Made by a program: the position numbers and the translations under genes. Below are positions 5,789-40,234 of a stretch of DNA of 64,000 nt, piece by piece. The stretch covers positions 1 through 64,000 of the forward strand of contig JAPPMU010000059.1 of assembly GCA_028873965.1 (NCBI GenBank), given 5' to 3'. The stretch is from Chloroflexota bacterium. GTDB lineage: Bacteria; Chloroflexota; Dehalococcoidia; Lucifugimonadales; UBA3495. Under the pieces are notes generated by a model. The model was not told the DNA's origin. It did no database searches and saw only the letters and a program-made list of their open reading frames with translations. Positions within the stretch are counted from its first letter, which is position 1. The number at the start of each line of letters is the position of its first letter.

Positions 5789-6310
5789 ATGGCTACTGGA
5801 CCGACCTTCCGGGAGGCCGATGTCGCTGCCGCCGTTGCTCTTGCTCTGGCTGCCTCCAAAGACCCGGCACAACCGGCAGCGGATGTGGGAAGGTCCCCCG
5901 TGAAATATGCGCAACTCAGCCACGATTTCCGGGCCAGCGCCTGGCGGCACCTCAACGAGGACGGGGACTTGCCTCAAGCCTCCAGCAAGGCTTGGGGCAT
6001 GGTCGCCGAGACCATCAAGGCTGTCAGCGCCCGGCACGGGGGGATTATCCATGCCCACCGTTCCATCTGGCACGTGCTTCGGGAATTGTCAAATCTGGCT
6101 GGTGAATCAGGCGATATTGATACGGCAAACTGGCTGAGAAATTCGTTTGGTGTCGCCCGGACGCTACATAGCAATTTCTATGAAGATGAAGCGGACGCCG
6201 GGGATGTGATTGCAGGTCTTCTGTTGTGCGAAGAACTGTCCGATCGGCTTTATGAGCTGTTCTGGCCGGACCGTGCCACCGGGGAAACCGGGCTTGATAA
6301 CGAGGGATAA
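5789..6310 (+). CDS. PaREP1/HEPN-like helical protein
   Basis: A 173-residue protein that starts two bases after the monooxygenase stop. Residues about 40-110 follow the PaREP1-type pattern: A-W-HLNEDGDLPQASSKAWGM, then ETIKAVSARHGG and a histidine-containing helix. This helical fold is close to HEPN domains, which often act with nucleotidyltransferases or in RNA metabolism. No HEPN RX4-6H catalytic motif is evident. Its TAA stop overlaps an ATG of the peroxiredoxin-like gene, so it is translationally coupled to that gene. Function unknown. Confidence 0.72.
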   Translation: MATGPTFREADVAAAVALALAASKDPAQPAADVGRSPVKYAQLSHDFRASAWRHLNEDGDLPQASSKAWGMVAETIKAVSARHGGIIHAHRSIWHVLRELSNLAGESGDIDTANWLRNSFGVARTLHSNFYEDEADAGDVIAGLLLCEELSDRLYELFWPDRATGETGLDNEG

Positions 6311-6312
6311 TG

Positions 6313-6804
6313 ATGAATGACAAACTGCAACAGGGCGACCGTCTGCCCGAGTTGGCTCTAAACCTCATCGACGGGGGCACGCTGAGTCTCCCCGGCGACA
6401 TGTCTTCACGCTACCTCGCCGTGCTGTTCTATCGCGGCGTTTGGTGACCCTACTGCTCGCGGCAGTTGGCCGCGTGGCAATCACAACAGGACTCGTTGTC
6501 CGAAATGGGGCTGTCCATCGTCGGCGCCAGCGTGGAACCCAGGGAAGTAGTGGAGGAAATGGCCACGAAGTCCGGCGTTACCTTCCCCATGGCCTACGGC
6601 GTTACCCGTGAGCAAGCCGACATGCTCGGCTCCTGGTGGTCCGATGACCGCGGTGGTTACATCCAGCCCACCGAGTTCCTGCTGGGACGGGGCGGCACCG
6701 TGCTCGGATCCATGTACGCCAGCGGCCCGGTGGGGCGGGTGAGCCCGGACGAAGCCGTGCACTTCATCGAGGGCCGCGAGCGCGCTCGGTTGCGCAGCCA
6801 GTAA
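6313..6804 (+). CDS. Peroxiredoxin-like selenoprotein (in-frame UGA read as selenocysteine)
   Basis: The frame from ATG 6313 (or 6310) to the stop at 6802-6804 encodes 163 residues if the TGA at 6445-6447 is read through. The context is FYRGVW-[UGA]-PYCSRQL, the AhpC/TSA active site where the peroxidatic cysteine normally sits, giving a U45-x-x-C48 motif. Both sides of the codon are conserved thioredoxin-fold sequence: LPELALNLIDGG upstream; VGASVEP, VTFPMAYGV and PTEFLLGR downstream. A SECIS-like hairpin starts just after the codon. The expected role is thiol-dependent peroxide reduction or disulfide exchange. A plain gene finder would start at TTG 6466 and lose the active site. The alternative is a nonsense mutation, unlikely at exactly this codon. 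Confidence 0.8.
6454..6479 (+). promoter_or_regulatory. Bacterial SECIS-like hairpin
   Basis: CGCGGC (6458-6463) pairs perfectly with GCCGCG (6469-6474) around a five-base loop AGTTG. TGC (6454-6456) and GCA (6477-6479) extend the stem below a small internal loop. The apical loop begins 16 bases after the UGA and has a G at its second position. Both features agree with the published bacterial SECIS consensus (loop 16-37 bases downstream, a G among the first two loop bases). It lies inside the coding sequence, as bacterial SECIS elements do. Confidence 0.7.
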
Positions 6805-6810
6805 ACGGCA

Positions 6811-6837
6811 GAGTGACGGGCCGTCAACCCGTCACTC
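6811..6837. terminator. Hairpin between convergent genes
   Basis: GAGTGACGGG at 6811-6820 pairs with CCCGTCACTC at 6828-6837 around a seven-base loop. It sits between the convergent peroxiredoxin-like and formate dehydrogenase genes and covers the latter's stop codon. There is no clear T-run on either side, so termination is only suggested. Confidence 0.4.
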
Positions 6838-9633
6838 CTCGGGTTCAACCCGGACCGCGCATACCTTGTACTCGGGTATCTTCGAGTCGGGATCGTACAC
6901 GGCGTTGGTCAGGAAGTTAGCCGCGGAATCGCTCAGGCGCACGAAGGGAATGAAAATCTCTCCGGTTCGCATGCGATAGGTGAAACGCGCCATCCCGGTA
7001 AGCTCTCCACGCCGCGAGCGGACGCGCACGGGCTGGCCATCCCGTAACCCGAATCGCTCGCCATCGGCCGGGTTGACGGACACTTCCAGGTCTGACATGC
7101 GAGCCAAAAGGTTCCCGACGCGACGCGTAATCGTGCCGCCGTGCCAGTGATACAACACCCTGCCGGTGTTCAGCACCAGCGGGAACCGTTCGGAAGGTGT
7201 CTCCGCCGCCACCGGCCCCTGTTCGTAGGCGACAAACTTGGCCCGGTCGCCCCGGGGAAAATTATCGCCGTAGAGATAACTGGTCCCGGGATGGTCAGGT
7301 GTCGGACAGGGCCATTGGATGCCGCCCTCGGCGTCCAGGCGGTCGTAGGATATTCCCGACAGCAGCGGGGTCAGGCTGGCCATCTCCGCGAATATCTCAG
7401 AAGGATGCCGGTACGCGAACTGGTCGCGCCAGGGCAGGTCAAGGTGGTCGCACATGAGCCGGGCCAGTTCGCTGATGATGGCCCAATCGGGCCGGCTGTA
7501 CCCAACCGGTTCGATGGCCTGCCGAACCCGTTGGACCCGGCGCTCGCTGTTGGTGAAAGTTCCGTCCTTTTCCGCGAAGCTGGTAGCCGGCAGCACGACG
7601 TCCGCCAGCCGGGCCGTTTCGTGGAGGAAGATATCCTGCACCGCCAGGAAATCCAGCCTGCGGAACAATTCGTCCGCCCGGTTGAGGTCCGGCTCGCTGA
7701 GCAGAGGGTTCTCGCCGGTGATGTACATTGCACGGACGCCGTCCGGCTCGCCTATGGAATCCACCATGTCCGTGACCACCCGACCCGCACGGTGGGGTAG
7801 CGAACCGTCTGCGTGCCAGGCCTGCCCGAACTTCGCAACCGATTCCGGTCTCAGGCCCTGGTAGCCCGGCAGCGAATCGGGAACGCATCCGGCATCGCCG
7901 CACCCCTGCACGTTGTTCTGCCCTCGCAGCGGCGAGATGCCGGATCCCGGGAAACCCATCTGCCCGGTAACCAACGCCAGATTGAGCACCGAGTGCACGT
8001 TGGCCGTTCCGTTGGTGTGCTGAGTCAGACCCATTCCCCAGATCAGGCAGGCGCCGCCGCGATCGCTGTTGGCGTCGCCGTATCGCGGGATCGGCGGCTG
8101 CGCCACCATGCGCCCGGCGGCGCGAATATCGTCCGCGGGAATGCCGGTGATCGCCGACGCCCGTTCCGGCGTGTACCCATCAATCACCGTGCGCCACTCG
8201 TCGTATCCTTCGGTCCGCCGATCCACAAATCGGTCGTCAGCCAAGCCCTCGGCGACCACGACGTGCGCCATGGCATTGAGCAGCGCGACGTCGGTTCCAG
8301 GGTAAGGCCGCAGCCAAAGGTCGGCATAGTCGCACATGTCGATGCGGCGCGGGTTGATCACGATCAGCTTTGCGCCACGCTCCACGACGGCGCGCCGCAT
8401 CCGCGATGCGGCCACCGGATGGTTGGAAGTCGGATCGCAGCCCATCACCACCAGGCAGCCTGCGTTTTCGTAGTCGGTGTATGAGTTGCTGGTTGCGCCG
8501 CTGCCCAGCGAGGTGAGCATCGCGGCCACCGACGGGGCGTGACACAGGCGCGTGCAGTGGTCGATGTTGTTGCTGCCCATAACCAGCCGGGCAAATTTCT
8601 GCTGCACGTAGCCGTCTTCATTGGTCGCCTTTGCCGAACAGAGCGTACCGAAAGATTCGCCCCGGTAATCGGCCAGTCGCGACGCTACCAGGGACAATGC
8701 CTCGTCCCAGCTCGCTTCCCGGAAGTCGCCGGTGAACCGGTCGCCCTCGCGTATCAGCGGCGTTTTGATCCGGTCGCCGTGGTGCACGAAGGTGTAGCCG
8801 AAACGTCCCTTGACGCACAGCATTCCGACGCTGGACCGGTTTTCCGGATCGTCGTGTGAAGCGATGATCGCCCCCGCGTCGGGTCCTTCCGTGGTATCGC
8901 TGACCTCAAGCTTAATGCCGCAACCCACCCCGCAGTATGGGCAGGTGGTCTTGACCTGGTGAGTGGACCCTGCGGTTTTTGGAGGCGCTTTGACGCTGAT
9001 CGCCCCGGTTGGGCACACGCTGAGACATTGCCCGCACGTGGTGCAGATGCTTTCTCCGAGCGGTTTGTCGCCCGCGGTGGCGATGCGGGCCGTCTCGCCG
9101 GCGCCCAGCACGTCGATGGCGCCGATGAACTGATGGCTGGACTGGCACGCGTTGACGCACCGGGCGCACAGGATACATGCGTCCATGGCGAGATCGAATA
9201 CCGGGTTGGATTCGTCCGTTGGCTGGCGTGGACGAGCGTCCCATCGCGATCCGGAAATCCCGTGCAACCTGGCTGCGTCGGACAGCAGACCATACCCTTC
9301 CCCAGAAGGTCCGTCGGACCCGTTGGACTTGCCCACCATGCCCAAGGTGAGTTCGATGACGCCGGAGCGGATGCGCCTGGCATCGGCCGTGTCGGTGCGG
9401 ATCACCATGCCGTCGCTGGCCGGGGTCGAGCACGACGCGGGGAAGCCACGGATGCCGTCGATTTGCACCAGGCAGGTCCGACAAGCGCCGATGGCTGGCA
9501 TGTCGGCATCTTTGCACAGCTGGGAGAGCGGCACGCCGGCGGCATTGACCGCGTCGAGCGCGCTGGCCCCGGACTTCACGCTTACCGCAATCCCATCAAC
9601 CGTCACGCTGATCGTTGGGCTGGTGACCACCAT
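6832..9633 (-). CDS. Formate dehydrogenase catalytic subunit (cysteine form, molybdopterin bis-MGD)
   Basis: A 933-residue iron-sulfur molybdoenzyme. Domain order: N-terminal [2Fe-2S] (C40, C51, C54, C68); two ferredoxin-type [4Fe-4S] motifs (C153-C156-C159-C163 and C197-C200-C203-C207); a proximal [4Fe-4S] (C231, C234, C238, C273); then the bis-MGD catalytic domain to the end. The molybdenum ligand is C364 in the context CTRLCHAPSV, followed by the active-site histidine, so this is the cysteine variant and not the selenocysteine one. The layout matches NAD-linked soluble formate dehydrogenase alpha subunits, which need NuoE/F-like partners. No such partner genes are adjacent, so the electron acceptor is unclear. 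Confidence 0.9.
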   Translation of the reverse strand: MVVTSPTISVTVDGIAVSVKSGASALDAVNAAGVPLSQLCKDADMPAIGACRTCLVQIDGIRGFPASCSTPASDGMVIRTDTADARRIRSGVIELTLGMVGKSNGSDGPSGEGYGLLSDAARLHGISGSRWDARPRQPTDESNPVFDLAMDACILCARCVNACQSSHQFIGAIDVLGAGETARIATAGDKPLGESICTTCGQCLSVCPTGAISVKAPPKTAGSTHQVKTTCPYCGVGCGIKLEVSDTTEGPDAGAIIASHDDPENRSSVGMLCVKGRFGYTFVHHGDRIKTPLIREGDRFTGDFREASWDEALSLVASRLADYRGESFGTLCSAKATNEDGYVQQKFARLVMGSNNIDHCTRLCHAPSVAAMLTSLGSGATSNSYTDYENAGCLVVMGCDPTSNHPVAASRMRRAVVERGAKLIVINPRRIDMCDYADLWLRPYPGTDVALLNAMAHVVVAEGLADDRFVDRRTEGYDEWRTVIDGYTPERASAITGIPADDIRAAGRMVAQPPIPRYGDANSDRGGACLIWGMGLTQHTNGTANVHSVLNLALVTGQMGFPGSGISPLRGQNNVQGCGDAGCVPDSLPGYQGLRPESVAKFGQAWHADGSLPHRAGRVVTDMVDSIGEPDGVRAMYITGENPLLSEPDLNRADELFRRLDFLAVQDIFLHETARLADVVLPATSFAEKDGTFTNSERRVQRVRQAIEPVGYSRPDWAIISELARLMCDHLDLPWRDQFAYRHPSEIFAEMASLTPLLSGISYDRLDAEGGIQWPCPTPDHPGTSYLYGDNFPRGDRAKFVAYEQGPVAAETPSERFPLVLNTGRVLYHWHGGTITRRVGNLLARMSDLEVSVNPADGERFGLRDGQPVRVRSRRGELTGMARFTYRMRTGEIFIPFVRLSDSAANFLTNAVYDPDSKIPEYKVCAVRVEPEE

Positions 9634-12660: not shown

Positions 12661-13305
12661 TTATCCCGCTCCCGATGCTCTCAGCGCGGCTTGGTACTGC
12701 TCCGGCGTGTTGACGTCCCAGAGCAATTCGGCGGCGCCCAGCTCCACCCGCTGCGTGCAGTCGCGATGCCGCTCAGTGATCGCCCTCATCCCCTGGGTTT
12801 GCTCGTCGATGGCGATGAGTTCCCCGTACAGCCGGCGACTCACGATGATGGGGTGCCCGCCCTTGCCCTGGTAAGTTGGGATGGTGATGAGACTGTCATT
12901 CCCGTTGCGATGGGCGGCCAGGGTTTGTTGGATGATTCCTACCGAGCGCGGCTGGTCGACGTTCAGCATCAGGATTGCCGCGTCGGGGTCGGGGGATGGA
13001 CCCAGGGCCCACAGACCCGTCTTGATGGAAGTGGTCTTGCCCTGGGCGTAGTCCTCGTTGGTCACGCACCGCACCCGGCCGAGGTCGTACACCTCCCGGT
13101 TGACGCCGATCCTCGCCTGCAACTCGTCGGCCCGGTGCCCCAGCACGACGATCACCTCGTCGGCCCCGGCCTCCCGCAACGAAACGATCTGATGGATGAT
13201 CAGGGAACGGCCCTGCCAATCCAGCAGCGCTTTCAGCGTTCCCATGCGCCGCGAAACCCCGGCGGCCAGCAGGATGGCGGACGTGAACCCGTGCTGGGCG
13301 GTCAT
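12661..13305 (-). CDS. MobA-like/MocA molybdenum cofactor nucleotidyltransferase
   Basis: A 214-residue nucleotidyltransferase. The N-terminal signature LLAAGVSRRMG-x-x-K is the NTP-binding loop of the MobA/MocA/IspD-like superfamily. LNVDQPR carries the metal-binding aspartate, and GKGGHPIIVSRRLY follows the MocA pattern. MocA attaches CMP to molybdopterin for xanthine-dehydrogenase-type enzymes. Its position next to XdhC on the same strand supports this. No hydroxylase structural genes are in the window, so the target enzyme must be elsewhere. Confidence 0.88.
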   Translation of the reverse strand: MTAQHGFTSAILLAAGVSRRMGTLKALLDWQGRSLIIHQIVSLREAGADEVIVVLGHRADELQARIGVNREVYDLGRVRCVTNEDYAQGKTTSIKTGLWALGPSPDPDAAILMLNVDQPRSVGIIQQTLAAHRNGNDSLITIPTYQGKGGHPIIVSRRLYGELIAIDEQTQGMRAITERHRDCTQRVELGAAELLWDVNTPEQYQAALRASGAG

Positions 13306-13407
13306 CAGGAAAACCCGTTGCGACGGCGATAACCAGTGGTCGACACCGGGTCATTCCCCTGCGGCAAAACGTTGATCGACCACACGTCGCCGGCCTGCGG
13401 GTCGGGG

Positions 13408-14544
13408 TCAGTCCGCGGTGGCACCCATCGCCCGATTGGCTCGGCGTTCGGCGCGTTCCAGGTACCAATCGTCCATGGTCATCGGGCTGCCCTTGCCGCC
13501 CCGTCGGGCCATGATGATCTCCGACATTATGCTCACGGCCAACTCTTCCGGCTCCAGGGCGCCGATGTCCAGCCCGATGGGCGCACGGACTTCCGCCAGT
13601 CGCTCACGAGGGACGCCCTCCTGCAATAGCCGCTGGTAGATCATGAGCGTCTTGCGTCGGCTGCCCAACAGGCCGATGTATCGGGCCTTGGTGGTCAACG
13701 CCGACTCCAGCGCCACGTCGTCGAACCAGTGCCCCCGGGACGCCACCACGATGAAACTGTTCACGTTGATGTCCAAGTGGTCGGCCCAGTTGGTGTAAGG
13801 CGTGACGATAGTCTCTTCCGCGTAGGGGAAACGCTCGGGGTTCGAGAAATCCTCGCGGTCGTCGATGATGTACACACGATAACCCAGTTGATGCGCCAGG
13901 TCCGCGGTGGCCTTCCCCACGTGTCCACCACCCACCATCACCAGCGTCGGCGGGGTGGTGAAACCCTCCACGAACAACTCGGTCTGGTCGTCGATGGTCA
14001 CCGATTCGTTGGCGCCGACAGCGGCGACGCGGCCCGCGGCTTCCAGCGCGATTTCGTCCAGCTCGACCGTGCCGATGCCACCCGCTATTGACCCGTCGGA
14101 CCGCAGCAGCAGCTTGGCTCCGAGACGCGCCGTATCGCCTTCGGATCTCACTACCGTAGCCAGGGCAGCCGGCTCTGCCCCATCGTACGCGCCCAGCAAC
14201 TCCGAGCCGATGTCCGAAAAGTCGTTCGTCTCCCAGAAGGGCTCGAGGTAGAAGTACATCGTGCCGCCGCAGACCAAGCCGTCGCGGGCTGCGATGTCCT
14301 CATTCAAGTAATAGTCCTTGAACTCCGGGCCGCCCTGGTTGCGCAGAATCTCCCGCGCCGCGAACCAGATGTCCCCTTCGACGCAGCCGCCGCCCAGCGT
14401 CCCGACGGCGGTGCCGTCGTCCCGCACCAGCAGCATCGCGCCGGCTTTCTGCGGCGTGGAGCCTTTGGTGCGCACCACCGTGGCCAGCACGCACGGATTG
14501 CCTGATTCCAACTGACTTACCGCTTCCTGAATAACGTCGCGCAC
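13408..14544 (-). CDS. xdhC: XdhC/CoxI-family molybdenum cofactor maturation protein
   Basis: A 378-residue protein with both XdhC domains. The N-terminal XdhC/CoxI part (about residues 10-70) contains VVRTKGSTPQKAGAMLLV and GTLGGGCVEGD. The C-terminal Rossmann part (from about 200) starts with LVMVGGGHVGKATADLA and ends with the LGSRRKT and IGLDIGALEPEELAVSIMSEIIM segments. XdhC binds molybdenum cofactor and delivers the sulfurated form to xanthine-dehydrogenase-type enzymes. It is upstream of the MocA-like gene on the same strand with a gap of about 100 bases, forming a maturation pair. Confidence 0.92.
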   Translation of the reverse strand: MRDVIQEAVSQLESGNPCVLATVVRTKGSTPQKAGAMLLVRDDGTAVGTLGGGCVEGDIWFAAREILRNQGGPEFKDYYLNEDIAARDGLVCGGTMYFYLEPFWETNDFSDIGSELLGAYDGAEPAALATVVRSEGDTARLGAKLLLRSDGSIAGGIGTVELDEIALEAAGRVAAVGANESVTIDDQTELFVEGFTTPPTLVMVGGGHVGKATADLAHQLGYRVYIIDDREDFSNPERFPYAEETIVTPYTNWADHLDINVNSFIVVASRGHWFDDVALESALTTKARYIGLLGSRRKTLMIYQRLLQEGVPRERLAEVRAPIGLDIGALEPEELAVSIMSEIIMARRGGKGSPMTMDDWYLERAERRANRAMGATAD

Positions 14545-26336: not shown

Positions 26337-26494
26337 TTGGCGTTTGGTTCAATCACCATAACTGGAGAGAGTGTATCGCAAGCATCCCGGCCCGGCAACA
26401 CACAGGATCCCGTTCAACCGGGTCGCTGCCGTGGGAGCGGGCGAGGTGCGCTATACTTCCGATGTCAACTTGATCGATGGAGCAAGAGAACGCT

Positions 26495-27448
26495 ATGGAA
26501 ACAGTAGGATTCATTGGCTTGGGGAACATGGGCGGTGGGATGTCGGCCAACATTCAGCGAGCCGGCTACCCGATGATCGTTTACGATTTGCGCGAGGAAG
26601 CCGCGTTGCCTCTGCTGGAGGGCGGAGCGCGTCTCGCCAACACGCCGGCGGAGGTGGCGGAGGCCAGCGACGTGACGTTCACGTCGCTGCCGGGTCCCTA
26701 CGAGGTGGAGGCGGTTTCGACGGGCGCTTCGGGAGTGCTGGAAGGGATCCGTCCGGGGAGCGTGTACATCGACCTGTCGTCGAGCCGGCCGACGCTGATT
26801 CGGGAGATCGAGCCGCAGTTTCGGGCCAAGGGTTGTCACGTGCTGGACGCGCCGGTGAGCGGGGGGAAGACGGGGGCGGCGTCGGGAAACCTGGCGGTGA
26901 TGGTGGGTGGAGACCGGGAGGTGTTTGATCGGGTGAAGCCGATACTGGACGCCTTTGGGGACAAGGTGTTCTACGCGGGCGAGATTGGGGCGGGGAGCGT
27001 GGCGAAGCTGGTGCACAACATGATTGGCCACAGCGTGCGGCAGGCCATCGCCGAAGGACTGACCTTGGGCGTGAAAGCCGGCGTCGAGCCCGAGGCGCTC
27101 TGGGAGTGCATCCGCCGCGGTTCTCTCGGCCGTATGCGGGTGCTGCACGAGGGATTGGTGCGGACGATGTTCCGCGGGGAGTTTGAGCCGGCAAGTTTCG
27201 CGCTGAACCTGGCGTACAAGGACATCTCGCTGGCGACGGAGTTGGCGCGGGAGTACGACGTGCCGATGCCCATGTCCACGCTGGCCGAGCAGATCGCGTT
27301 GCAGGCCATGAACCGCGGCTGGGCGGAGTCGGACAGCAGCATCACCGTGCTGCTGCAAGAGGAGCAGGCGGGCGTCGAGGTACGCGCGCCGCACGTTGAC
27401 CCGGTCCGCGCCGGGCGATTCATCACCACCCACCCCGACGACGAATAG
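26495..27448 (+). CDS. 3-hydroxyisobutyrate dehydrogenase-type NAD(P)-dependent oxidoreductase
   Basis: A beta-hydroxyacid dehydrogenase. The nucleotide-binding loop is GFIGLGNMGGGM. The substrate segment DAPVSGGKTGAASGNLAVMVGG and the catalytic lysine region AGSVAKLVHNM are classic family signatures. ATG 26495 opens directly into the Rossmann strand; an in-frame ATG at 26477 would add six residues. A TATACT box at 26452-26457 suggests a promoter with a poor -35. It could act on branched-chain or C3-C4 hydroxyacids, fitting the acyl-CoA pathway genes nearby. The following VOC gene begins 51 bases later. Confidence 0.9.
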   Translation: METVGFIGLGNMGGGMSANIQRAGYPMIVYDLREEAALPLLEGGARLANTPAEVAEASDVTFTSLPGPYEVEAVSTGASGVLEGIRPGSVYIDLSSSRPTLIREIEPQFRAKGCHVLDAPVSGGKTGAASGNLAVMVGGDREVFDRVKPILDAFGDKVFYAGEIGAGSVAKLVHNMIGHSVRQAIAEGLTLGVKAGVEPEALWECIRRGSLGRMRVLHEGLVRTMFRGEFEPASFALNLAYKDISLATELAREYDVPMPMSTLAEQIALQAMNRGWAESDSSITVLLQEEQAGVEVRAPHVDPVRAGRFITTHPDDE

Positions 27449-27499
27449 CCAGCCCTCGTGCCGTCCTATCCGGAAATGCCGGTGCAACCGGAGCAACCG

Positions 27500-27925
27500 A
27501 TGAATCTGAATACGTACCTCCACTTCAACGACAATTGCCGCGAGGCTTTCGAGTTCTACCGTTCCGTGTTCGGCGGCGAGTTCGGCATCCTGCTGACCTT
27601 CGCCGAAGGACCCGACCATATGCCGCCCCTGCCGGATCACGAGAAAACCCGCATCATGCACGTGTCCCTGCCCGTTGGCGGCGGCGTGCTCATGGGCAGC
27701 GATTCCTGTTCCGCCTTCGGGCCGCCTCCCACCTCCGGCAATAATTTCTCCATCAGCATCTCCACTGACAGCCGCGAGGAGACCGACCGTGTGTTCGCGG
27801 CCCTGGCCGACGGCGGCAATGCCGCAATGCAGCCCCAGGATATGTTCTGGGGGGCCTATTTCGGCATGTGCACCGACCGCTTCGGCGTCAACTGGATGCT
27901 CAGCAACGAAGCCCAGTCCCACTGA
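27500..27925 (+). CDS. VOC-superfamily protein (PhnB/glyoxalase-like)
   Basis: A 141-residue protein of the PhnB-like VOC group: LHFNDNCREAFEFYRSVFGGEFG at the N-terminus, HVSLPVGGGVLMGSD, SISTDSREETDRVFAALADGG, and GAYFGMCTDRFGVNWML at the end. ATG 27500 is preferred over GTG 27458 because a GGAG site lies six bases upstream. PhnB-like proteins often lack the metal set of true glyoxalases, and their substrate is unknown. It sits between two oxidative enzymes and is likely co-transcribed. Confidence 0.85.
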   Translation: MNLNTYLHFNDNCREAFEFYRSVFGGEFGILLTFAEGPDHMPPLPDHEKTRIMHVSLPVGGGVLMGSDSCSAFGPPPTSGNNFSISISTDSREETDRVFAALADGGNAAMQPQDMFWGAYFGMCTDRFGVNWMLSNEAQSH

Positions 27926-27978
27926 CCACGCAACCATCCGTACCGCGTCCAATCCCCTCATTCCGTAAGGAGGACATG

Positions 27979-28833
27979 ATGGCCGACTCCAACCTGACCA
28001 TCGACTGCCAGGTACACTGCTACGAACTCAACACACCTGCGCGTCCCTGGGCCGGCTACCTGCAGGGCCCGGATCAGGCAACCGGGGACGATATGGTCAC
28101 CGCCATGGATGCCGTCGGCGTCGACGGCGCGATCCTGATTTCCCCGTTTGCCATGTACCGCTACGACGCCAGTTACGCCTTGGAGGTTTACGATCAGCAC
28201 CCCAACAAGTTCGGTTTGGTCCGGCCTTTCGATCCCGAATCGCCGTCAATCGACGAGGAGATGGCGGAATGGACCGGCCGGCCCGGTGTAGTCGGCGCGC
28301 GCATCATGCTGCGCGACGTGGATTACGAGGCCGACCATCCCGGCGTGAACCAGATCATCGCCGCTGGCGGCCGGGCCGGCGTTCCCGTCAACCTCATGTG
28401 CTCCGGCAAGCTGCCGTTGATGCGGGAACTGGCGCGCCGGAATCCTGATACGCAGCTCATCGTCGACCACCTCGGGCTGGCGCAACCGTTCGAGCCGCCG
28501 GCTCCGCCGGAGCCCTGGGCTGACCTGCCCAACGTGCTGGCCCTGGCGGAGTGCGACAACGTCGCCATCAAGATCTCCGGCGCCGGCACGCTGGCCCACG
28601 AGCCTTTCCCCTATCCCGACATCTGGGAACCCCTGCACCGGATTTTCGATGCCTTCGGCCTGGAACGCTGCCTCTGGGGCACCGACTGGACCCGCGCCGT
28701 CAACCTGCTGAACTATGAGCAGGGCGTCGAGGCCTTCCGCCTCACGGACACCCTGTCGGACGCGGATCGGGCCGTTCTCATGGGCGGGGCGCTGGCCAAC
28801 ATCTACAAGTGGTCCCCCGGCGTGGCGAACTAG
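27979..28833 (+). CDS. Amidohydrolase-2 family metal-dependent hydrolase
   Basis: A 284-residue TIM-barrel hydrolase related to 2-pyrone-4,6-dicarboxylate lactonases and decarboxylases. It has IDCQVHCYELNT near the start, LIVDHLGLAQP, IKISGAG and LWGTDWTR at the usual beta-strand positions. The first metal motif reads C-Q-V-H where family members usually have H-x-H, so metal binding there may differ. AAGGAGG lies five bases before ATG 27979. A terminator follows. Confidence 0.85.
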   Translation: MADSNLTIDCQVHCYELNTPARPWAGYLQGPDQATGDDMVTAMDAVGVDGAILISPFAMYRYDASYALEVYDQHPNKFGLVRPFDPESPSIDEEMAEWTGRPGVVGARIMLRDVDYEADHPGVNQIIAAGGRAGVPVNLMCSGKLPLMRELARRNPDTQLIVDHLGLAQPFEPPAPPEPWADLPNVLALAECDNVAIKISGAGTLAHEPFPYPDIWEPLHRIFDAFGLERCLWGTDWTRAVNLLNYEQGVEAFRLTDTLSDADRAVLMGGALANIYKWSPGVAN

Positions 28834-37780: not shown

Positions 37781-38959
37781 ATGGATTTGACCATCTCTGT
37801 GCTCAAGGCGGACGTTGGTTCGATTGGTGGTCACACCAAACCGTCGGATCGCATGATGGACGCAGTACGCTCGGCCACGGACCGAGCCATGCGCGACGGC
37901 TTGCTCATCGACGCCTACGTGGGACACACCGGCGACGACATCTGCATCACCACCACTCATACCCGTGGTGACAATGACGAAGCGGTCCACCAGTTCGCCT
38001 GGAATTCTTTCCTGGAAGCAACCGAGATCGCGCGTCAGTACGGGCTGTACGGCGCGGGTCAGGACCTTCTCGTCGACGCCCCGTCGGGCAATATCCGCGG
38101 CGCCGGACCCGCCGTGGCGGAGATCACGTTCGACCATGACCCGATCAAGACCAACCCCATACGCCCGGCGGAGTCTTTCTTCGTCCTCGCCGCCGACAAG
38201 TGTGGCCCGGGCGCTTACAACCTCCCGACGTTCCTGGGTTTCGCCGACCCCATGTACTGTGCCGGCCTGATGCTCCCCCGCCTGGGCGAGGGCTTCACGT
38301 TCAACATCATCGACATGGACAACACTGACGGCGACAGCATCATCTCGCTGAACGCCCCCGAGGACTACTACCGGATCACAGTCCTCCTACGCGACAACGA
38401 GCGTTTCGCCATCGAGAGCGTGACCTCGCGCTACTCCGGTCAGACCGCTGCGGCGATTTCGGCGACGCGGCTGCACAACATCGCGGGCAGCTACACTGGC
38501 AAGGACGACCCGGTCGCCGTGGTGCGGAACCAGGGAATCTTCCCGGCTCCCGAGGAACTGATTTCGCCGTACACCAAGGCCCATTACATCGGCGGGGACG
38601 CGCGAGGTTCCCACGTCATGCCGCTGATGCCGGTGCCCATCAACACCGCGGTGACGGGCATGTACTGCCTGCCGCTGGTTTCGTGCGTGGGCTTCAGCAT
38701 CAACTCCGAAGGCAAGTTCGCCGAGTCCTCGACGGACTTCTTCGACAACCCGGCCTGGGACTACACTCGCCAACTGGCCCAGGAAAAGGGCATCGCGATG
38801 CGCTCCCAGGGTTGGTCCGGCGCTGCAATGCTGCCTTACGGCGAGCTGGAATACTCCGGCTTCCGACAGAGCATTGGCGACCTCGTGGCCCGGTTTGCCA
38901 TCCGCACCAACGGACACCAGCCGGCCGCCCAGCCGGTGGCGTCCGGCGACGACGATTAG
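37781..38959 (+). CDS. Fructose-1,6-bisphosphate aldolase/phosphatase (class V FBPase)
   Basis: A 392-residue bifunctional gluconeogenic enzyme of archaeal type that makes fructose 6-phosphate directly from triose phosphates. The N-terminal LTISVLKADVGSIGGHTKPSDRMM, HTGDDICI, and HQFAWNSFLEATEIARQYGLYGAGQDLL are diagnostic metal-binding and lysine-containing segments. YTKAHYIGGDARGSHVMPLMPV is the C-terminal metal segment. ATG 37781 follows a GGGAGGAA ribosome site. It stands alone, with its own promoter and a terminator. Found mainly in archaea and deep-branching bacteria. Confidence 0.94.
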   Translation: MDLTISVLKADVGSIGGHTKPSDRMMDAVRSATDRAMRDGLLIDAYVGHTGDDICITTTHTRGDNDEAVHQFAWNSFLEATEIARQYGLYGAGQDLLVDAPSGNIRGAGPAVAEITFDHDPIKTNPIRPAESFFVLAADKCGPGAYNLPTFLGFADPMYCAGLMLPRLGEGFTFNIIDMDNTDGDSIISLNAPEDYYRITVLLRDNERFAIESVTSRYSGQTAAAISATRLHNIAGSYTGKDDPVAVVRNQGIFPAPEELISPYTKAHYIGGDARGSHVMPLMPVPINTAVTGMYCLPLVSCVGFSINSEGKFAESSTDFFDNPAWDYTRQLAQEKGIAMRSQGWSGAAMLPYGELEYSGFRQSIGDLVARFAIRTNGHQPAAQPVASGDDD

Positions 38960-38981
38960 CCGTTCTACATCGTCAAAGTTC

Positions 38982-39011
38982 AGGGGCGGGTTCACACCCG
39001 CCTCTGTTTTT
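38982..39011 (+). terminator. Intrinsic terminator after the class V FBPase
   Basis: A ten-base stem with one mismatch, AGGGGCGGGT with ACCCGCCTCT around a TCAC loop, followed by GTTTTT. It lies between the convergent FBPase and aminotransferase genes. Confidence 0.75.
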
Positions 39012-39046
39012 CCTGTGCCAGCCGGCAGTGCCGGCCCTCGTTGGCA

Positions 39047-40234
39047 TCAGCCGGCGAATATCCCGTTGCGCTCGAAAATCGCCGCCAGCTCCGCGATTCC
39101 ATCGGATACGGTTTGCGCCGTCGGATGCCCGAAGCACAAGCGCGCCATGTTTGTGCCGTTGCCCTCGGGCGAGAACATCGCGCCATTGTAGTATCCGACG
39201 CCTTCGTTGAATGATTGCTCTTGGAACGCGGCCAGATCCGTGCCCTCCGGCATCGTCAACCACAGGTACAATCCGCCCTCGGGCTTGGACCAGGTGGCGC
39301 GGTTTCCGAAGTGCTCGCCAAGAGCGGCCAGCATGGCGTCCCGCTTGGCCCGCAGCGCCTGGTTTTCCTCGTCGATGTGGTCGTACATGTGATTGCGCAG
39401 GTACTCCTCAATCGCCAGGGCGGCGAACTGGTTGACGCCACCGGATTTGAAGCTCAGCGCGCGCTCCCGCACAATTTCCGGCGCCACCAGGTAGCCCATG
39501 CGCACGCCGGGAGCGATGATCTTGGACATTGATCCCACGTACAGGACGCTCCCGCTGTCATCCAGGCTGCTGATGGATGTCACGTCCTCGCCCTCGAATC
39601 GCAGGTCAACATAACAGTCGTCCTCCAGAATGGGCACACCGTGGCTCTGGCAGACTTCCAGCATGCGTTGCCGCCGCTCCAGAGTGGCGGTCCATCCCAG
39701 GGGGTTCTGGAAAGTGGGGATGGTGTACAGGAACTTGACCCGGCGGCCCGCCGCGTGCTGTGCCCTGATGGTCTCGTCCAACGCCTCCGGTATGATCCCG
39801 TCGTCGTCGCACTTGACGCCCACTACGTTGGCGCTCCACAACCGCATTTGACGCATCGTCCCGAGATAGACGTATTCTTCGGTCAGGAGCACGTCGCCCG
39901 GGTCGGTCATGGCCTGGATCAGCATGTTGATGGCTTCACCGGAACCGGACGTCAGGACGATGTCGTCGGCAGTGACTTCCATCTGCCGGTCGCGGCGCAG
40001 CTTGTCCGCCACGAGCTCACGCAGCGGCGGATATCCGGCGGACACCGGATAGTAGGCCAAATCACGGCCTTCCCGCTCCAGCGCGACGCTCAGCGCGTCG
40101 ACGAGGCCGGTCAGCGGCAGCGTGTCCGGATCAGGGTAGGCGACCGCAAAATCGTACCTGGCGTGCCGGTTCGCGCCCCGGGTGGTGATCGGGGCCCGTT
40201 CGGCGAAGAGCCCTTCGTAGTTGAACTCGCTCAT
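39047..40234 (-). CDS. PLP-dependent aminotransferase (class I/II, LysN/MocR-like)
   Basis: A 395-residue fold-type I aminotransferase, homologous along its length to the one at 9703. It shares the layout GSGEAINMLIQAMTDPGDVLLTEEY, IPTFQNPLGWTATLERRQRML, EDDCYVDLRFE, and YVGSMSKIIAPGVRMGYL with the PLP lysine. The two differ enough in sequence to have distinct substrates. It lies downstream of aspS on the same strand with a gap of 73 bases, probably its own transcript or an operon tail. The amino acid specificity is not known. Confidence 0.88.
   Translation of the reverse strand: MSEFNYEGLFAERAPITTRGANRHARYDFAVAYPDPDTLPLTGLVDALSVALEREGRDLAYYPVSAGYPPLRELVADKLRRDRQMEVTADDIVLTSGSGEAINMLIQAMTDPGDVLLTEEYVYLGTMRQMRLWSANVVGVKCDDDGIIPEALDETIRAQHAAGRRVKFLYTIPTFQNPLGWTATLERRQRMLEVCQSHGVPILEDDCYVDLRFEGEDVTSISSLDDSGSVLYVGSMSKIIAPGVRMGYLVAPEIVRERALSFKSGGVNQFAALAIEEYLRNHMYDHIDEENQALRAKRDAMLAALGEHFGNRATWSKPEGGLYLWLTMPEGTDLAAFQEQSFNEGVGYYNGAMFSPEGNGTNMARLCFGHPTAQTVSDGIAELAAIFERNGIFAG

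Follow-up and report, generated by a model that had tools for sequence, protein, structure and literature searches.

Prx-like selenoproteins with a UxxC motif have been in print since 2005. The passages concerned report 22 sequences from the Sargasso Sea (PMC1088965) and 225 sequences of Prx-like 1 in GOS (PMC2398784), and Prx-like UxxC proteins are tabulated in a 2026 review (PMC13188914); an initial sequence-only reading of the locus analyzed here, which had pointed to such proteins in marine metagenomes, is borne out in this respect. Compared by description only, our gene resembles the published Prx-like thiol:disulfide oxidoreductases (PF00578, UxxC) in its AhpC/TSA domain, its UxxC motif and its SECIS-type element of the bacterial kind directly after the UGA. 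In the passages of the GOS paper (PMC2398784) and of the 2026 review (PMC13188914) that deal with this family, there are 0 occurrences of Chloroflexi or SAR202. A literature search on selenocysteine in SAR202, Chloroflexi, Dehalococcoidia and Chloroflexota, with subscription papers mostly outside its reach, returned no title or abstract naming the Prx-like UxxC family. The general kind of protein is already known; what is new is its clade in SAR202-type Chloroflexota, the spread of this clade and its series of Sec, Cys and Ser forms.

Several further families are related. The peroxiredoxin-like family protein cd02970 is listed with UxxS (PMC13188914, Table 1), whereas the gene here has UxxC, again compared by description only. 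It probably belongs to the same broader family as cd02970. The motif FYRGxWCPYC is one that we take to be typical of this peroxiredoxin-like family. With the Sec peroxiredoxin (Prx, TxxU) our protein shares the peroxiredoxin-type fold and the predicted Sec at the attacking position; unlike the latter, it has no Thr at U-3 and carries its second redox residue at U+3. The NCBIfam entries NF041054 (WAxxUGC_long) and NF040769 (SelL_rel_redox) likewise comprise thioredoxin-fold redox selenoproteins or relatives, and none of the NCBIfam models reaches its cut-off with our protein (NF041054 15.8 bits vs 300, NF040769 14.6 vs 120). A peroxiredoxin-family protein encoded on a Deinococcus aetherius plasmid (WP_264777680.1) is of the same fold family with ~35% identity, but has Cys at the Sec position and lacks the CGGCAGTTRGCC core found downstream of the UGA in our gene.

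A peroxiredoxin-like gene with an in-frame UGA codon

The window, i.e. the whole stretch of 64,000 nucleotides analyzed, belongs to an uncultured relative of the SAR202 group (Chloroflexota) and contains a read-through frame that corresponds to one AhpC/TSA-type gene with an in-frame UGA as codon 45 (Table 1). The frame is open from the ATG at 6310 or 6313 to a TAA at 6802-6804. The Pfam family AhpC-TSA (PF00578) spans the UGA (residues 8-130, 2.6e-18, 66.6 bits vs a cut-off of 26), and the read-through product contains only one U and one C, both within the motif FYRGVWUPYC. Both the sequence itself and the domain match across the UGA agree with the sequence-only reading, which had placed the codon between FYRGVW and PYC in a frame open on both sides. 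It had also expected the 3' part to appear as a truncated frame from TTG 6466, and the ORF list indeed holds this part only as a 112-aa entry starting at that codon. AGGAG-like stretches are found upstream of many homologous start codons.

Table 1 Features of the Prx-like gene and its immediate surroundings in the window.
Feature	Position	Strand	Basis
Shine-Dalgarno-like GAGGG ahead of the start codon	6302..6306	+	Read by eye
Probable Prx-like selenoprotein gene, 163 residues, Sec45 (ATG 6310 also possible)	6313..6804	+	Read-through translation, Pfam, homologues, AlphaFold2
UGA codon, predicted to specify selenocysteine, residue 45	6445..6447	+	TGA in 47/48 loci of relatives and source at the same column, Cys in the remaining one
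Codon of Cys48, presumed resolving residue of U-P-Y-C, sole Cys of the protein	6454..6456	+	Invariant in 62/62 aligned proteins
SECIS-type hairpin (candidate), 6 pairs, loop AGTTG 6464-6468	6458..6474	+	Covariation, synonymous constraint at codons 50-53, core in 46/51 TGA vs 0/53 Cys sequences

We also scanned the window for ORFs read through a single UGA; 31 of 161 have Cys near the UGA, the Prx-like gene among them. Two other candidates were rejected as selenoprotein genes. At 38387-40234 (-), an aminotransferase-like ORF (395 aa) ends at its own TGA and the sequence beyond is antisense to another ORF, and the candidate at 26465-28081 (-) is antisense to forward ORFs.

The genomic neighbourhood is shared among close relatives: at all 11 loci taken as same-genus, the gene sits between hydrolase and luciferase-like monooxygenase genes and an aminotransferase gene. 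The adjoining formate dehydrogenase gene is missing from five of these loci and mostly missing from a sixth, and the neighbourhood is not kept in eight other TGA loci examined. Directly upstream in the window lies a PaREP1-family gene (5789-6310, +), which overlaps the ATG at 6310 by one base and recurs, with exceptions, in the majority of the 11 same-genus loci. The formate dehydrogenase alpha-type gene of the window (6832-9633, -) has no in-frame stop, and its CHAP motif, where Sec formate dehydrogenases have UHxP (motif as given in PMC13188914), marks it as a Cys form. At 12661-14544 (-), MobA-like NTP transferase and XdhC/CoxI genes are adjacent, as in molybdenum hydroxylase maturation.

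Retention of the UGA codon among relatives

A search of 99 genomes, including the source, gave matches at E <= 0.001 in 81 of them. At E <= 1e-20, 46 of the 99 genomes match: 44 with one TGA (among them G041, whose gene is cut by a contig end), one with a broken gene (G092) and one without a stop (G091). Across the searched relatives, the residue-45 column holds TGA in 47 of 48 loci, a count that takes in the source's own copy and two broken copies, and Cys in one (G091). A second set of 67 loci from titled public genomes, which partly repeats genomes of this search, has 19 TGA and 48 Cys at the Sec column; since these loci were found via peptide patterns, one of which (WCPYCSRQ) requires Cys, the ratio is no census. 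Seventeen of the 19 TGA loci are titled Chloroflexi, Chloroflexota, Dehalococcoidia or SAR202, and the other two come from Alphaproteobacteria MAGs; identity is 47-49% for the latter two copies and 20-42% for the 48 Cys loci. The two MAGs (loci L056 and L064) carry the TGA form together with a related hairpin, perhaps by gene transfer or mis-binning.

Wider sampling extended this picture. In a class-level draw of 393 genomes, 23 match at E <= 1e-20 (three already counted, 17 new with TGA and three with Cys), and all 17 further genomes have their TGA exactly at the Sec column. In a phylum-level draw of 400 genomes, 12 match at the same threshold: the source, six whose match contains a TGA and five in which it contains none. 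Four loci were retrieved from the six TGA genomes; they belong to a family outside the class and, at ~35% identity, still show both the TGA at the Sec column and the same core of the hairpin. As for the homologue alignment that the sequence-only reading had suggested, the column contains UGA or Cys, plus one Ser, which speaks in favour of Sec.

A pseudogene or sequencing error, i.e. a nonsense change hitting what is otherwise a normal Cys-type member of the peroxiredoxin-like family, could likewise place a stop codon at this position, and broken copies of the Sec gene do exist in the family (L125 in G092 is frameshifted, and L126, the second copy in G030, has further stops). However, these two are the only copies in which interruptions elsewhere in the gene were seen, random stops in close relatives being what the sequence-only reading had named as evidence against Sec. 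The same TGA is retained across many genomes at 35-99% protein identity in a frame open on both sides, and both the synonymous constraint downstream and the complete Sec machinery (see below) also argue against such an explanation, to which we assign a negligible probability.

Many distant Prx/ResA-like matches (20-30% identity, open frames of ~150-430 aa) were also recorded with one TGA, e.g. G089:C1:2283717-2284136 and G035:C118:7248-7592. They may hint at further selenoprotein families in the order.

A constrained and covarying hairpin after the UGA

The hairpin consists of six pairs between CGCGGC (6458-6463) and GCCGCG (6469-6474) around the loop AGTTG (6464-6468), and 16 bases (6448-6463) separate the UGA from the loop, exactly as first described from the sequence. 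By the spacing rule, a bacterial SECIS is expected shortly after the UGA, and the loop AGUUG has the G among its first two bases that is a criterion for such elements. The hairpin core CGGCAGTTRGCC follows the UGA in 46 of 51 distinct TGA sequences vs 0 of 53 Cys sequences; this contrast does not decide the matter by itself, since most of the Cys sequences are distant and differ in base composition. The core is absent from all five near Cys relatives (L117, L140, L141, L151, L162).

For 48 of the 51 TGA genes, leaving out one cut by a contig end (L122) and the two broken ones (L125, L126), we ranked 54 conserved columns according to how far their codon uniformity exceeds pooled usage. Codons 50-53, which form the hairpin core, rank first to fourth. 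Leu52 is encoded by TTG or TTA in 48 of 48 genes, though CTG is their commonest Leu codon.

Stem covariation was assessed in 62 distinct hairpins (67 rows after removal of two broken ones, five duplicates dropped), in which 87.1% of cells pair. The covariation score of the stem is 0.277 vs 0.108 (sd 0.014) in 500 shuffles, 0/500 of which are as high, with the caveat that related sequences may beat such shuffles without any structure; when slid, it is 0.131 at most. The stem covaries by three of five measures, while the other two lie within the shuffles (169/500 and 130/500 as high). At the second pair from outside, GC occurs 29 times, UA 16, CG 7, UG 2, GU 1 and other combinations 7 times; the outermost pair is formed in 36 of the 62 hairpins. 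Compared with synonymous shuffles, the folding energy of the TGA set is unremarkable (mean z of -0.88; 29% of shuffles reach an equally low value) and that of the Cys set has a mean z of +1.19 (82%); this weak result was given no weight in favour of the hairpin. An Rfam scan of 6300-6810 gave no SECIS match and one sub-threshold match to an unrelated family. RNAalifold's own four-pair hairpin was rejected: none of its pairs changes on both sides, and its arms encode the conserved YC and RQ.

The expected place, the covarying stem and the constrained codons support the SECIS-like nature that the sequence-only reading had ascribed to the hairpin. It had further judged a chance nonsense mutation unlikely, a view upheld by the recurrence of TGA at one column together with the synonymous constraint and the stem covariation.

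Selenocysteine machinery in the source genome and its relatives

All four components that the sequence-only reading had listed for a check are present in the source genome, each above its curated cut-off: selA (542.2 bits, located on the window's own contig), selB (356.9 bits), selD (377.6 bits) and tRNA-Sec, the product of selC (66.4 bits; SeC with anticodon tca according to ARAGORN). The selD gene (L133) has an in-frame TGA of its own in HCAGUAAK, followed by a possible hairpin. Among 14 control genomes, selB exceeds the cut-off in two, selA in one, selD in two and tRNA-Sec in five; since the family model for tRNA-Sec picks up other class II tRNAs as well, we set our own threshold of 59 bits, under which G084 (54.1 bits), an undecided case, was entered as lacking tRNA-Sec.

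Among the 44 TGA-gene genomes, the source included, selB exceeds the cut-off in 42 and tRNA-Sec reaches at least 59 bits in 39; both hold for 38 and at least one of the two for 43, which leaves G045 (78% complete) with neither. The 17 further TGA genomes gave a similar result, with selB over the cut-off in 16 (not in G236), tRNA-Sec of at least 59 bits in 15 (not in G338 and G395) and at least one of the two in all 17. Absence of the machinery from a complete genome would have spoken against Sec, and the same-genus one-contig genomes G003, G006 and G010 carry the gene, selB and tRNA-Sec. Among relatives without the gene, selB exceeds the cut-off in 43 of 53. Sec machinery is common in the order, gene present or not; it is permissive for the gene and does not predict it. 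Of four Cys-only genomes checked for machinery, G120 and G170 have both selB and tRNA-Sec, and G091 and G099 are without selB and a convincing tRNA-Sec (the best hit of G091, 50.7 bits, lies above the Rfam cut-off of 47 and below 59). In sponge symbionts, the corresponding passage of a published study describes SelA and SelB as co-occurring in the majority of bins and missing from the majority of close references (PMC5649159); SAR202 bin87 of that study is the genome behind our locus L041.

An open frame past the UGA cannot by itself tell Sec from another residue, and the codon might instead be decoded as Trp or some other standard amino acid, or UGA might be a sense codon in the code of this genome. 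This is hardly credible, however: UGA works as a normal terminator in the group, being the final stop of several homologous genes; at the Sec position homologues have Cys and not Trp; and tRNA-Sec, SelA, SelB and SelD are present.

Fold and likely function

The AlphaFold2 model, with C in place of Sec, reached a pLDDT of 94.0 and a pTM of 0.88. Its best Foldseek match in the PDB is Bcp4 (3hjp_A; TM 0.83/0.86); other peroxiredoxins come next, and ResA-type proteins appear from rank 17 onwards. R41, W44, C48, R50 and P119 are invariant in 62 aligned proteins, and no export signal was noticed by eye in the protein.

On the basis of the conserved UGA, the constrained and covarying hairpin, the complete machinery, Cys in homologues and the peroxiredoxin-type fold, we consider it very probable that this is a selenoprotein gene whose UGA at residue 45 is read as selenocysteine, and that its product is a thioredoxin-fold Prx-like oxidoreductase. 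SelA and SelD would make Sec-tRNA-Sec; SelB would then bind the AGUUR-loop hairpin just past the UGA and deliver Sec at the ribosome, so that termination at the UGA would be avoided. The selenol of Sec45 would attack a disulfide or peroxide, Cys48 of U-P-Y-C would resolve Sec45 as a selenenylsulfide, and a thioredoxin-type reductant would then re-reduce the enzyme. In this scheme, we infer the actual Sec insertion, SelB binding, the substrate, the reductant, the location and the cellular role.

The enzyme could also be a true peroxiredoxin, with Sec45 as the peroxidatic residue and mainly reducing H2O2 or organic peroxides. The best fold matches are peroxiredoxins, AhpC-TSA is the best Pfam family and Sec favours peroxide reduction, but the canonical peroxiredoxin motif PxxxTxxC is absent, with Gly42 at U-3 where Thr would be expected. 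Moreover, the UxxC motif, present as U-P-Y-C, resembles thioredoxin and ResA sites, and ResA ranks first, albeit weakly (1.8e-05), in a sequence search of the PDB. The Sec-Prx, according to the passage describing it, has TxxU (PMC1088965). A true peroxiredoxin is thus a possible but somewhat doubtful reading. Since PxxxTxxC is missing, 'Prx-like thiol:disulfide oxidoreductase, UxxC' appears to be a better label than 'peroxidase'. Of the initial description as a peroxiredoxin-like protein with UGA at the catalytic, peroxidatic Cys, the peroxiredoxin-like fold holds, whereas the canonical motif is missing and a peroxidatic role is at most putative.

Sec, Cys and Ser forms within the clade

A tree of 62 proteins was calculated with the Sec column excluded and rooted at the midpoint; some of its deeper nodes are weak. 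A 100/100 branch splits 47 TGA sequences, four near Cys proteins and one Ser protein from ten distant Cys proteins. Cys and Ser forms branch from inside the TGA sequences at starred nodes of the tree, which amounts to four changes in total. The simplest reading, which is not a proof, is that Sec would be the older state within the clade. In G347 there are two tandem copies: L159:961-1452 has TGA at the Sec position, and L159:1498-1998 has TCA (Ser) and one core codon changed to CAA.

These forms may represent a natural series of selenium loss, a scenario to which we give an even chance. Sec would be older, the Cys forms would have arisen inside the clade with loss of the hairpin (and, in two of the four genomes examined, of selB and tRNA-Sec as well), one tandem copy would have gone from Sec to Ser, and gene and hairpin together may have moved between phyla, the two Alphaproteobacteria MAGs being the case in point.

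Altogether, the family occurs in many uncultured Chloroflexota of the SAR202 type, where standard gene calling would probably truncate the gene at the UGA and thereby conceal its active site. Its presence speaks for a genuine use of selenium in this lineage, and its Sec, Cys and Ser forms, some with hairpin and machinery and some without, make up a compact aligned collection in which the retention and loss of selenocysteine can be studied.
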